A stretch of 64,000 nt of DNA from positions 248,001 through 312,000 of the forward strand of contig NZ_CP061739.1 in the NCBI RefSeq assembly GCF_014770435.1, read 5' to 3'. The stretch is from Psychrobacter sp. 28M-43. GTDB lineage: Bacteria > Pseudomonadota > Gammaproteobacteria > Pseudomonadales > Moraxellaceae. The translations under genes were made by a program, and so were the position numbers. The notes below the pieces were generated by a model. That model was not told where the DNA came from, ran no database searches, and saw nothing but the letters and a program-made list of their open reading frames with translations. This document shows, one piece after another, positions 6,998 through 9,499 of the stretch (within the stretch, counting starts at the first letter, position 1; each line of letters begins with the position of its first letter).

Positions 6998-8191
6998 ATG
7001 ACTGATCATGCTTTGTGCTTAACTGTTCTATCTGCCCCAAAGATCGCCATCATCGGTGGTGGCCTGACGGGTTTGCTCACCGCAACACTATTAGAACGCG
7101 CGTCAAACCAATCAAGCTCGTCATCTAACACCCCGCAAATCACTATCTTTGAAAAGTCACGTAGTGTAGGCCGTTTAGCGACCCGCTATCGCAGCGATAG
7201 TAAAACTGATAAAAACTGGCAATGGTCGTTCGGTGCGCAGTTTTTTACTGCGAAAACTGCTGACTTTCAACAATTTATCGCGCCTTGGTTAGATACAGGG
7301 TTACTACAGCCGTGGTGTGCCGAAGTGGTTGAGTTAACGCCATCAAGTGACAATGAGCAACCGCCTAATATCCAAAGCAAAGAGCAATGGGACGCGGTGC
7401 ATGCACGCTATATCAGCATACCAAAAATGACCAGTTGGGGCCGTGAATTGGCCGCCGCGCTTAAGTACACGACCATAGTATTTAAGACCCGTGTCGCACC
7501 GCTCGCTCAGTATTTACAGTATCAAAATCAGCAGCAGTCTCAGCACCAAACTTTTAATCAAAACAGTAAGCAAACTGAGCTATTTGACGAAACTGGAGCC
7601 AGTCTGGGTTGGTTTGATTGGGTTATTTACACAGCGCCAAATGGTCAGGCATTAGAGCTAATGGCAGATAGCGGTTTTGCTCAACAAGACAAAATTACTA
7701 AACCGCAAATGCAAGCCTGCTATACGCTGATGCTTGGTTGGGATGATGTGCAAAAGCTACCTGAAACATTAAATGGCCAACTAGCACCGCAATGGGATGT
7801 CGCTTATTTAAATAGCGCTATTCTTGATAGGATATTCATTGAGCATAAAAAGCCTGCTCATGGTGAACTACTACCAAGTGTCACCATTCATGCACGTAAT
7901 GACTGGTCAGAATCCCACGTCGATGATGATATGGAGTTGGTAAAAGAACAATTATTACAGGCGGCAAAACAAGCATTAAACTGGAATGAAGACAGCGCAC
8001 CTAGCCAAACAGATTGTCATCGTTGGCGCTATGCAGCTACTATCGTAAATAAGGATACTGAAGAGTTGGGCATCTTAATCGATGCAACCAAACAATGGAT
8101 CGTCAGTGGTGACTGGTGTGCTAAAGGTAATATTGAAAGCTGCTATCGAATGGCGCAGCAAACCGTTAAGGCAATCATGCAAATACAGTAA
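6998..8191 (+). CDS. NAD(P)/FAD-dependent amine oxidase-like protein (renalase-type)
   Basis: 397-residue flavoprotein. The N-terminal Rossmann dinucleotide fingerprint IAIIGGGLTGLLTATLLE has its glycines at 20-25, followed by the FAD-contacting FEKSRSVGRLATR. The middle 'GAQFFTAKTADFQQF' and the late 'VSGDWCAKGNIESCYRMAQQ' are typical of bacterial renalase-like or COG3380 proteins, predicted soluble flavin oxidoreductases. The substrate is unknown; some family members oxidise dihydro-NAD(P) isomers. Residues 165-190 contain a Gln/Asn-rich insertion (QNQQQSQHQTFNQNSKQ) not expected to be catalytic. The gene is monocistronic, with no strong ribosome binding site at the chosen ATG; no better start was found. 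Confidence 0.75.
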   Translation: MTDHALCLTVLSAPKIAIIGGGLTGLLTATLLERASNQSSSSSNTPQITIFEKSRSVGRLATRYRSDSKTDKNWQWSFGAQFFTAKTADFQQFIAPWLDTGLLQPWCAEVVELTPSSDNEQPPNIQSKEQWDAVHARYISIPKMTSWGRELAAALKYTTIVFKTRVAPLAQYLQYQNQQQSQHQTFNQNSKQTELFDETGASLGWFDWVIYTAPNGQALELMADSGFAQQDKITKPQMQACYTLMLGWDDVQKLPETLNGQLAPQWDVAYLNSAILDRIFIEHKKPAHGELLPSVTIHARNDWSESHVDDDMELVKEQLLQAAKQALNWNEDSAPSQTDCHRWRYAATIVNKDTEELGILIDATKQWIVSGDWCAKGNIESCYRMAQQTVKAIMQIQ

Positions 8192-8303: not shown

Positions 8304-8408
8304 CAAAAAAAAGGCCCACAGAGGAGGTACTGTGGGCTGAGGAAAACGGGTCATGTATTAGCTACACAGGCCGTGGTCAAGAGTTGTTGTAATTATTGGT
8401 GCTCTCTA
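8304..8408 (-). ncRNA. Candidate Fur-controlled small RNA (RyhB/PrrF/NrrF-like in logic)
   Basis: The spacer has no credible ORF but has all the parts of a minus-strand sRNA gene. A -10 TATAAA (8415-8420) and a weak -35 TTGTAT (8437-8442) are spaced 16 bp, with a 16/19 Fur box in between. A perfect 8-bp terminator stem (GCCCACAG / CTGTGGGC) ends in eight U on the minus strand. The start is inferred near 8408 and the end near 8304, giving about 105 nt. The terminator loop reads UACCUCCU, able to pair with Shine-Dalgarno sequences, and the long U-tail is typical of Hfq-bound sRNAs. By analogy, it would be repressed by Fe-Fur and would lower iron-using proteins when iron is short. Signals are seen; existence of the transcript and its role are inferred. 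Confidence 0.6.
8305..8337 (-). terminator. Intrinsic terminator of the candidate sRNA
   Basis: An 8-bp perfect stem (8314-8321 with 8330-8337), loop of 8, then eight consecutive U in the minus-strand transcript (A-run 8305-8312). The U-tract exists only on the minus strand, so it does not serve the plus-strand gene to its left. Confidence 0.8.
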
Positions 8409-8416
8409 CTGTTATT

Positions 8417-8435
8417 TATAAGGATAATAATTATC
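8417..8435. promoter_or_regulatory. Fur box
   Basis: TATAAGGATAATAATTATC matches the 19-bp Fur consensus GATAATGATAATCATTATC at 16 positions and contains a 6-1-6 palindrome (GATAAT-A-ATTATC, 8423-8435). It lies between the -35 and -10 of the minus-strand promoter, a position where bound Fur would block RNA polymerase. Confidence 0.75.
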
Positions 8436-8442
8436 AATACAA

Positions 8443-8815
8443 TAGGTGGAGATATTTAACTATTAATATTTACTGATTTAAGTGTACAAGTGTTCTGGTA
8501 CAGTCGCTATGATAGCTCAATTGAATGCTGTCTGGCGGTTTTGGTTACAGTATATTACGTTGTAAAAATCCAAAAGACGCAAAGACTGGTATGAAGCACT
8601 GATATTTAGAGTAAGTAGCGGAGCTTTATGATTAAATTATTAATAAAGGCTTCCAATAATTTCAATAGCTTATGTCGATAGGAGAGCATCTAGTCACTCT
8701 TGATACCTTTCTTGATATCTTTGATAACTCAATCGCTGCAGAGATGGCATGACGCCTTGTCCGAAAAATGCTAAGCTATCTGCCATTATTATGTTCATAT
8801 TAAACTGGGTTTGCC
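8443..8815. other. Spacer between sRNA promoter and pgsA
   Basis: No ORF, RNA gene or strong hairpin was recognised. It should contain the pgsA promoter, for which I saw no clear consensus hexamers. Confidence 0.4.
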
Positions 8816-9499
8816 ATGACTGACAGCACGCATTTGCATACGCAGGAAGAACCGCCAAGTTCGAAAAATACCAAAAGTATTTTTAACTTGCCTAACAACC
8901 TTACGATTGCGCGTATTTTGATGATTCCGCTATTTGTCGCGATTGCTTATTGGCCGCCAGCCATGGGTATCGGTATGCCTGCGATTTCAGATAATGTCAT
9001 TGCGCGCGTTGGGATGAGCGAGTTTAGCGATAGCTTATTACGCCATTTATTATTGACCGGCGTCTTTATTATTGCCGCGATTACTGATTGGCTCGATGGG
9101 TATTTTGCTCGTAAACTAAATGTCATGTCAGCCTTTGGTCGATTTTTGGACCCTGTTGCTGATAAATTAATGGTAGCTGTAGCGCTCATCGTTCTTGTAC
9201 AGTGGCATCCTAATATCATTATGGCGATAGCGGCTATTGTCATTATCTCGCGTGAGATCGCGGTATCAGCATTACGCGAATGGATGGCAGAGTTGGGCAA
9301 AAGCACTAGCGTCGCAGTATCTTATGTAGGCAAACTAAAGACTACGTTCCAGATGGTAGCAATTACCGTACTATTGCTTAATTGGCAGTCGCTTGAAACC
9401 ATCGGTTATGTATTAATGGTCGCCGCTGTGATACTTACCTTATGGTCGATGATGATTTATCTAAAAGCAGCTTGGCCTTATTTAAAGCAAAGCGGATAA
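8816..9499 (+). CDS. pgsA: CDP-diacylglycerol--glycerol-3-phosphate 3-phosphatidyltransferase
   Basis: Integral membrane enzyme that makes phosphatidylglycerophosphate, the committed step to phosphatidylglycerol and cardiolipin. The CDP-alcohol phosphatidyltransferase motif D-G-x2-A-R-x8-G-x3-D-x3-D is visible as DWLDGYFARKLNVMSAFGRF followed by LDPVADK. Hydrophobic segments before and after the motif fit about five or six membrane spans. At 227 residues it is longer than the roughly 185 usual, owing to about 22 polar N-terminal residues and a loop of about 25 residues after the first helix (GMPAISDNVIARVGMSEFSDS). The gene is monocistronic, flanked by the sRNA spacer and a strong terminator. 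Confidence 0.93.
   Translation: MTDSTHLHTQEEPPSSKNTKSIFNLPNNLTIARILMIPLFVAIAYWPPAMGIGMPAISDNVIARVGMSEFSDSLLRHLLLTGVFIIAAITDWLDGYFARKLNVMSAFGRFLDPVADKLMVAVALIVLVQWHPNIIMAIAAIVIISREIAVSALREWMAELGKSTSVAVSYVGKLKTTFQMVAITVLLLNWQSLETIGYVLMVAAVILTLWSMMIYLKAAWPYLKQSG

Follow-up and report, generated by a model that had tools for sequence, protein, structure and literature searches.

RyhB, PrrF and NrrF are iron-starvation sRNAs. A further point of reference is Aar, an sRNA of Acinetobacter (RF02375), which, in the excerpted parts of its description, is reported to use a C-rich CUCC seed to block translation at Shine-Dalgarno regions, for example those of carO and bfnH, to be induced by osmotic shock and by iron limitation, and to be solely present in Acinetobacter (PMC11472050). 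Among the OmpR-family response regulators, the sections excerpted from the respective papers give the RstA box as TACATNTNGTTACA, a ten-base direct repeat (PMC4117788), and the CpxR box as GTAAA-N4-8-GTAAA or GTAAA-N5-6-GTAAA (PMC5063474, PMC9600279).

Here, we analyzed a locus in a Psychrobacter genome that shares traits with each of these systems; the whole stretch of DNA analyzed, 64 kb in length, is referred to as the window. On the balance of the comparisons below, we favor reading it as a pairing sRNA whose promoter is of the two-component type and which may have been put under Fur recently in the window's lineage.

The sRNA locus and its promoter

The locus lies on the minus strand, between a convergent and a divergent protein-coding gene, and comprises the following features.

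6998..8191, plus strand: FAD protein gene, convergent neighbor of the sRNA
8305..8312, minus strand: terminator U-tract, eight T, read directly and found by the terminator scanner
8337-8314, minus strand: terminator stem-loop 2, found by the terminator scanner, with an anti-Shine-Dalgarno-like loop, UACCUCCU, at 8329-8322
8305..8408, minus strand: sRNA transcript of ~103 nt, its start predicted from the -10 hexamer and its end from the terminator
8420-8415, minus strand: -10 hexamer TATAAA, by direct reading; invariant at all 6 positions among 17 close genomes
8442-8437, minus strand: -35 hexamer TTGTAT, by direct reading; invariant at all 6 positions among 17 close genomes
8816..9499, plus strand: pgsA, divergent conserved neighbor of the sRNA

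An earlier note on this DNA had described TTGTAT and TATAAA on the minus strand with a 16-bp spacer between them, followed by a strong intrinsic terminator with an eight-U tail, and no ORF, and each of these elements was found where it had been placed (terminator stem at 8337-8314, eight T at 8312-8305). A coding RNA was ruled out, as no ORF fits between 8304 and 8442: the longest one overlapping this interval encodes 28 aa on the plus strand, and those on the minus strand, of 23 and 21 aa, both extend beyond the terminator. A CsrA sponge was likewise ruled out by direct reading, because the sRNA's own strand contains no GGA motif. The minus strand from 8408 to 8304 folds with -26 kcal/mol (z -3.0), an energy equaled by 1 of 200 shuffles.

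The N16 spacing between the two hexamers recurs in relatives, where the -35 position reads TTGAAT or TTGAAA, and the predicted placement of the hexamers is thus supported by these relatives. In a sigma-70 scan over 3 kb, which returned 9 sites versus 7.3 expected, the sRNA promoter was absent from the output, because its -10 lacks the final T; the hexamers alone are therefore weak. With an own promoter, an intrinsic terminator and no ORF, the locus has the makeup of an sRNA gene, its start being predicted and its hexamers weak by themselves.

Conservation, synteny and covariation

A DNA search gave matches in 89 of 105 Psychrobacter genomes, the one in G040 being weak and at a locus without pgsA, and 88 loci were retained after removal of three double fetches. 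Forty-eight representatives of these 88 loci, chosen at <93% similarity, are called lineages hereafter. Alignment A1 comprises 31 of them (the 17 omitted are mostly more divergent), and both covariance models were built on those 31. Model R2 matched the window at 8306-8404 (E 2.9e-15) and recovered the sRNA in 93 of the 105 genus genomes, with 12 giving no match, in the kind of covariance search across Psychrobacter that the earlier note had proposed. Beyond the genus, R2 matched 12 of 243 other genomes of the family, from three further genera. An order-wide sample of 390 genomes yielded 11 matches (10 Psychrobacter and one g14), and an exact core pattern run against 84,980 named species returned 27 stretches, every one titled Psychrobacter. 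No Rfam family, those of RyhB, PrrF and NrrF included, matched the window at its gathering score, nor did any match L001 at threshold. A plasmid origin was ruled out, the plasmids searched giving no match. In the open-access literature searched, on Psychrobacter and on sRNAs or pgsA of Moraxella catarrhalis, no such RNA was apparent.

pgsA was found in 86 of the 88 loci and is divergent from the sRNA in all 86; in the other two, contigs stop nearby. Among 17 extra loci that were fetched, pgsA lies within the stretch in 8 (five genus outliers, L140-L144; two g8 loci, L147 and L149; and one g14 locus, L150), again divergent in all 8. For 67 of the 88 loci, the span fetched includes the FAD gene, in these always on the strand opposite to the sRNA. 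As a separate observation, versions of the sRNA lie away from pgsA in the g14 loci L134-L136, which are without stem 1, and in L138 and L146; those of L134, L138 and L146 are upstream of a large gene, with a LolB-like gene next in L134 and L146, as assigned by reading.

Within the RNA, comparison of the loci delineated three further elements.

8383..8397, minus strand: A-rich AAN-type leader, AAYAAYAA in 58 of 88 loci; consensus of the alignment
8346..8374, minus strand: stem-loop 1, with outer stem ACGG...CCGU and inner stem UGUGUA...UACA
8337..8346, minus strand: linker UUUUCCUCAG, a seed candidate that sits between the two stems; UUUCCUC[A/G]G in 87 of 88 loci

The terminator loop reads CCUCC in 74 of the 88 loci. 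In the 31 aligned sequences, standard pairs fill 93.5% of the pair cells, versus 30-47% in slid-structure controls, and the terminator stem is 100% paired. Changes on both sides occurred in 11 of the 17 structure pairs, and 8 of the 9 pairs of stem-loop 1 have changed on both sides; the counts for stem 1 are if anything low, because this stem is off by one column in some A1 rows, such as L057. None of 500 shuffles attained any one of five measures. Conserved sequence and a secondary structure with covariation, as expected of the sRNA class, are thus both present, and within 17 close genomes 7 of 100 transcript positions vary.

Could the conserved part be without a trans-acting RNA altogether, being a mere transcription terminator or some other cis element of the pgsA region? 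The terminator hairpin is indeed the best conserved part, and the shorter g14 versions lacking stem 1 (L134-L136) lie away from pgsA, that of L134 being upstream of another gene. However, the loop and the linker, needless for a terminator, are conserved as well as the stem; stem 1 is itself conserved with covariation; the leader and the promoter geometry recur; and the element is still there in the 21 of 88 fetched spans in which the convergent FAD gene was not found. We regard this explanation as very unlikely.

We instead regard a real sRNA gene at this locus as very probable and, on its genus-wide conservation, synteny and covariation, as a member of a family. Its assignment to a separate Psychrobacter family that has a few relatives in sister genera appears well supported. 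The comparison shows its position, its predicted structure and terminator, and two C-rich elements to be conserved. The earlier note's reading of the locus as an sRNA is thereby supported beyond the evidence it had drawn on, whereas the Fur control that it attached to this reading is not conserved, as detailed below.

A Fur-like box in the promoter spacer

Two overlapping Fur-like registers, with no strand assigned, fall in the promoter of the window.

8417..8435: Fur-box-like 19-mer, 16/19 to GATAATGATAATCATTATC, 19.6 bits; lineage-specific
8423-8441: second overlapping Fur register, 18.7 bits

The box at 8417-8435 agrees with GATAATGATAATCATTATC at 16 of 19 positions, exactly as the earlier note had counted. 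Genome-wide, the plain Fur consensus at <=3 mismatches gave 13 matches versus 12 for the reversed pattern, and is therefore not rare; five of the seven other consensus places adjoin iron-type genes, and the remaining two are intragenic. As a more telling measure, we scored sites with a Fur matrix derived from these five iron loci, namely the bfd-bfr cluster, an imelysin-type gene, two TonB-type receptors, and an aminotransferase beside a siderophore-type permease (gene names assigned by reading of the ORFs). With 19.6 bits, the box is the top 19-mer of the 64-kb window, the next non-overlapping one reaching 13.4, and the iron sites themselves, left out one locus at a time, score 19.1-23.7 bits. 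A high score is not proof, because the two intragenic consensus matches reach 15.5 and 18.7 bits. Over 738 kb of genus DNA, a score of at least 19 bits is attained by only three sites, two of them in the leaders of the sRNA loci L052 and L063. The sRNA region attains at least 19 bits in 3 of 48 lineages; shuffles gave 0.025-0.075, a matrix with permuted columns gave 0.017, and the reversed matrix gave 0.

Of the 17 near-identical genomes, counting that of the window, L001 and L011 score 19.6 bits, 13 score 15.4, L014 scores 12.8 and L015 11.1, so that 15 of the 16 nearest relatives of the window's genome lie at 11.1-15.4 bits. Lineages L018-L024 score 5.4-11.0 bits, and of the 71 loci outside the clade only L052 and L063 (19.6) and L072 (16.6) exceed 14; by the plain consensus, 2 of 48 lineages reach 15/19. 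Within the 17 close genomes, 4 of 19 positions of the box and 7 of 35 in the upstream spacer are variable, and both hexamers and both upstream boxes (see below) are invariant. The predicted site is thus present in the promoter of the window's genome and not conserved alongside the sRNA: the Fur-like box is a strong local match without sign of long-standing selection, because relatives score low and the box varies like spacer. A Fur box as a trait of the genus was rejected on the plain consensus, the shuffles, the within-clade variation and the matrix, and was kept as a possibility for the window's lineage, where we put Fur control at slightly less than an even chance.

These data bear on the earlier note's proposal of a Fur-repressed iron-starvation sRNA like RyhB, PrrF or NrrF. 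Such an RNA would be turned on at low iron and would spare iron through repression of iron-storage or iron-using proteins such as bacterioferritin. Repression by Fur is plausible in the window's strain, whose box resembles the strain's own iron-gene sites, tops the window and offers two registers, and the recurrence in 3 of 48 lineages exceeds that in shuffles. However, the box is not common to relatives and evolves like spacer, and the matches of L052 and L063 fall in the A-rich leader, a probably transcribed part whose conservation has another cause. Poor conservation of the box and the terminator, which the note had named as evidence against itself, was found for the box; the terminator is well conserved.

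Upstream boxes and OmpR-family regulators

Two conserved elements lie farther upstream.

8479..8493, minus strand: conserved box ACACTTGTACACTTA; 0 of 15 positions vary in the close clade
8543..8559, minus strand: direct repeat CGTAATATACTGTAACC (GTAA-N6-GTAA) of OmpR-family type, distal to the sRNA; all 17 positions invariant in the close clade

Of the 48 lineages, 45 contain GTAA-N6-GTAA in this region, versus 0.7 expected from shuffles, and GTAA repeats with gaps of 2-5 and 7-12 occur in 0-4 lineages. In 19 of the 48 lineages, the first GTAA stands exactly 17 nt before TTGNNN-N16-(-10); both repeat halves are intact in 8 of these 19, and in the others the second half is altered, often to ATAT. 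Shuffles gave 0.0 at this offset, and other offsets from 10 to 25 gave 0-6. A repeat 17 nt before a predicted -35 is the geometry of OmpR-family activators. Against the RstA box, 25 of 48 lineages score at least 10/12, compared with 5.4% in shuffles; for the reversed pattern, 2 of 48 do so. In the window's clade, the proximal repeat is absent and only the distal repeat at 8543-8559 is kept; in the window, the proximal repeat appears to have been broken by an insertion.

The window's genome encodes eight regulators with an OmpR-family DNA-binding domain. Among them, a BfmR/RstA-like regulator scores 270.6 of 330 bits and a CpxR-like regulator 205.1 of 341 bits, both under the NCBIfam equivalog cut-off; the RstA/BfmR-like regulator has 97-100% identity in all of the 30 genus genomes that were tried. 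Autoregulation through the same repeat before the regulator gene was not borne out, as only 2 of the 29 genomes read (30 fetched, L266 left out) have GTAA-N6-GTAA before bfmR, and because of this low count the single repeat upstream of the window genome's own bfmR is ascribed to chance. The repeat is also absent throughout the CpxR-like locus. We consider ancestral control of the sRNA by an OmpR-family regulator rather likely.

Several side observations were made around these loci. Upstream of bfmR, 13-15 of the 29 genomes read carry repeated TTAC motifs with gaps of 2, 5 and 11 in place of GTAA-N6-GTAA. A genome-wide BfmR binding study reportedly found a direct-repeat motif. At L278 (1.408 Mb in the window's own genome), the CpxR-like regulator is followed by a kinase-sized ORF, with a divergent CpxP/Spy-like gene, as assigned by reading. 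The box between pgsA and the sRNA, ACACTTGTACACTTA / ACAGTTGTACACTGA, is present with <=3 mismatches in 80 of 88 loci. At 8506-8516, upstream of pgsA, a GCTATGATAGC-type inverted repeat is found in many aligned relatives and is possibly the -10 region of pgsA or an operator.

Candidate targets

Both the linker UUUUCCUCAG and the CCUCC terminator loop look like anti-Shine-Dalgarno seeds, and the blocking of Shine-Dalgarno sites is, in our estimate, the likeliest mechanism and a probable one. The A-rich leader is a possible Hfq distal-face site, and from this tract, the U-tail and the hfq gene encoded in the window's genome we infer that the sRNA uses Hfq.

Predicted pairings were ranked over 55 5' regions of the same genome, 51 from the window plus bfr, sdhC, lolB and mscL, with gene starts set by a simple rule rather than by annotation. 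RNAduplex energies from a separate calculation proved too permissive and were set aside. The first rank fell to bfr, with -14.0 kcal/mol for its Shine-Dalgarno against the terminator loop, in a bfd-bfr cluster that has a Fur-like site upstream; mscL ranked 4th, sdhC 40th and lolB 45th. In six further genomes, bfr leaders located by synteny carry GGAGU (GGAGAGU in G017); the stretches of G013, G054 and G072 yielded no bfr. Across seven genomes, native sRNA-bfr pairs did not outperform mismatched ones, 0.23 of permutations being as good, and a covarying sRNA-bfr change between the window's genome and G018 fails in the other five. Over six genomes, TGAGGAAA was found ahead of an ATG 59 times (30 of these read), and its reversed control 58 times. 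The mscL pairing is unconserved, its ribosome-binding region drifting outside the window's close relatives (24 of 30 read), as is that of lolB, where TGAGGA is present in 16 of the 29 read (30 fetched) and absent from the window's genome.

The sdhC gene was rejected as a target on its poor predicted pairing; its leader is conserved. This leader, ~45 nt before the ATG, reads ACAGGAGTATAACCGCAAAA(A)GG and is strikingly alike in many genus genomes (L227 and others among L213-L242), which suggests another post-transcriptional element there.

We consider bfr the best iron-related target candidate. Its first rank favors the earlier note's view of the RNA as the iron-starvation sRNA of this organism, which stays an inference: sdhC ranks low, and the bfr pairing lacks co-evolution in the seven genomes. 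Weighing promoter and targets together, we judge a Fur-repressed iron-starvation sRNA to be rather unlikely, and a dedicated iron-sparing role for the RNA equally doubtful.

Proposed mechanism and significance

In the reading that we prefer and hold to be rather likely, the locus would produce a stand-alone, terminator-ended sRNA of ~103 nt, in which UUUUCCUCAG and the CCUCC loop would pair with Shine-Dalgarno stretches and so block translation, probably with Hfq. The ancestral promoter would be driven by an OmpR-family response regulator through the direct repeat beside the -35. In the window's lineage, (i) the promoter-proximal repeat would have decayed while the distal one was kept, and (ii) a Fur-like box would have arisen in the spacer between -35 and -10; because of these two changes, iron may be a recent input. 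A more specific scenario, in which an old sRNA activated by an RstA/CpxR-like member of the OmpR family lost its proximal repeat within a single clade and acquired a Fur operator in the promoter spacer, leading to iron sparing through bfr, with the Fur-like matches of two other lineages as parallel gains, strikes us as unlikely.

An sRNA family that is present in 93 of 105 genomes and varies naturally in both promoter boxes offers a ready system for comparing how sRNA promoters are rewired from one stress input to another around an unchanged RNA. It also yields a clean prediction by which iron can be told apart from envelope-type signals. That the family is new and its kind already known appears well supported by the comparisons.

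Comparison with known systems

The Psychrobacter sRNA resembles RyhB, PrrF and NrrF in having a Fur-like box in its promoter, an intergenic position, its own terminator and bfr as a possible target. Unlike in those systems, the box is unconserved in the Psychrobacter family, no Rfam match reaches the gathering level, and the iron targets are candidates.

The likeness to Aar, as far as the excerpted description of Aar extends, lies in the length of ~100 nt, the occurrence in Moraxellaceae, the two stem-loops and the C-rich seed, which is a candidate in the present case. The global alignment is weak, and an Aar orthologue was rejected on a score of 19.4 bits, below the gathering score of 60 (E 1.5). 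Moreover, the C-rich seed of Aar is described in those excerpts as single-stranded near the 5' end, whereas the putative seeds of the Psychrobacter sRNA are in the linker and the terminator loop.

With respect to the promoter, the RstA and CpxR boxes, in the form given by the excerpts consulted, and the Psychrobacter GTAA-N6-GTAA are all ten-base direct repeats, the Psychrobacter one standing beside the -35 in some lineages. The CpxR consensus as excerpted shares the core of the Psychrobacter repeat, and its period at N5, but the base after each GTAA is A in the CpxR box and mostly not A in Psychrobacter. The commonest proximal Psychrobacter repeat differs from the RstA box, in its excerpted form, at one position.
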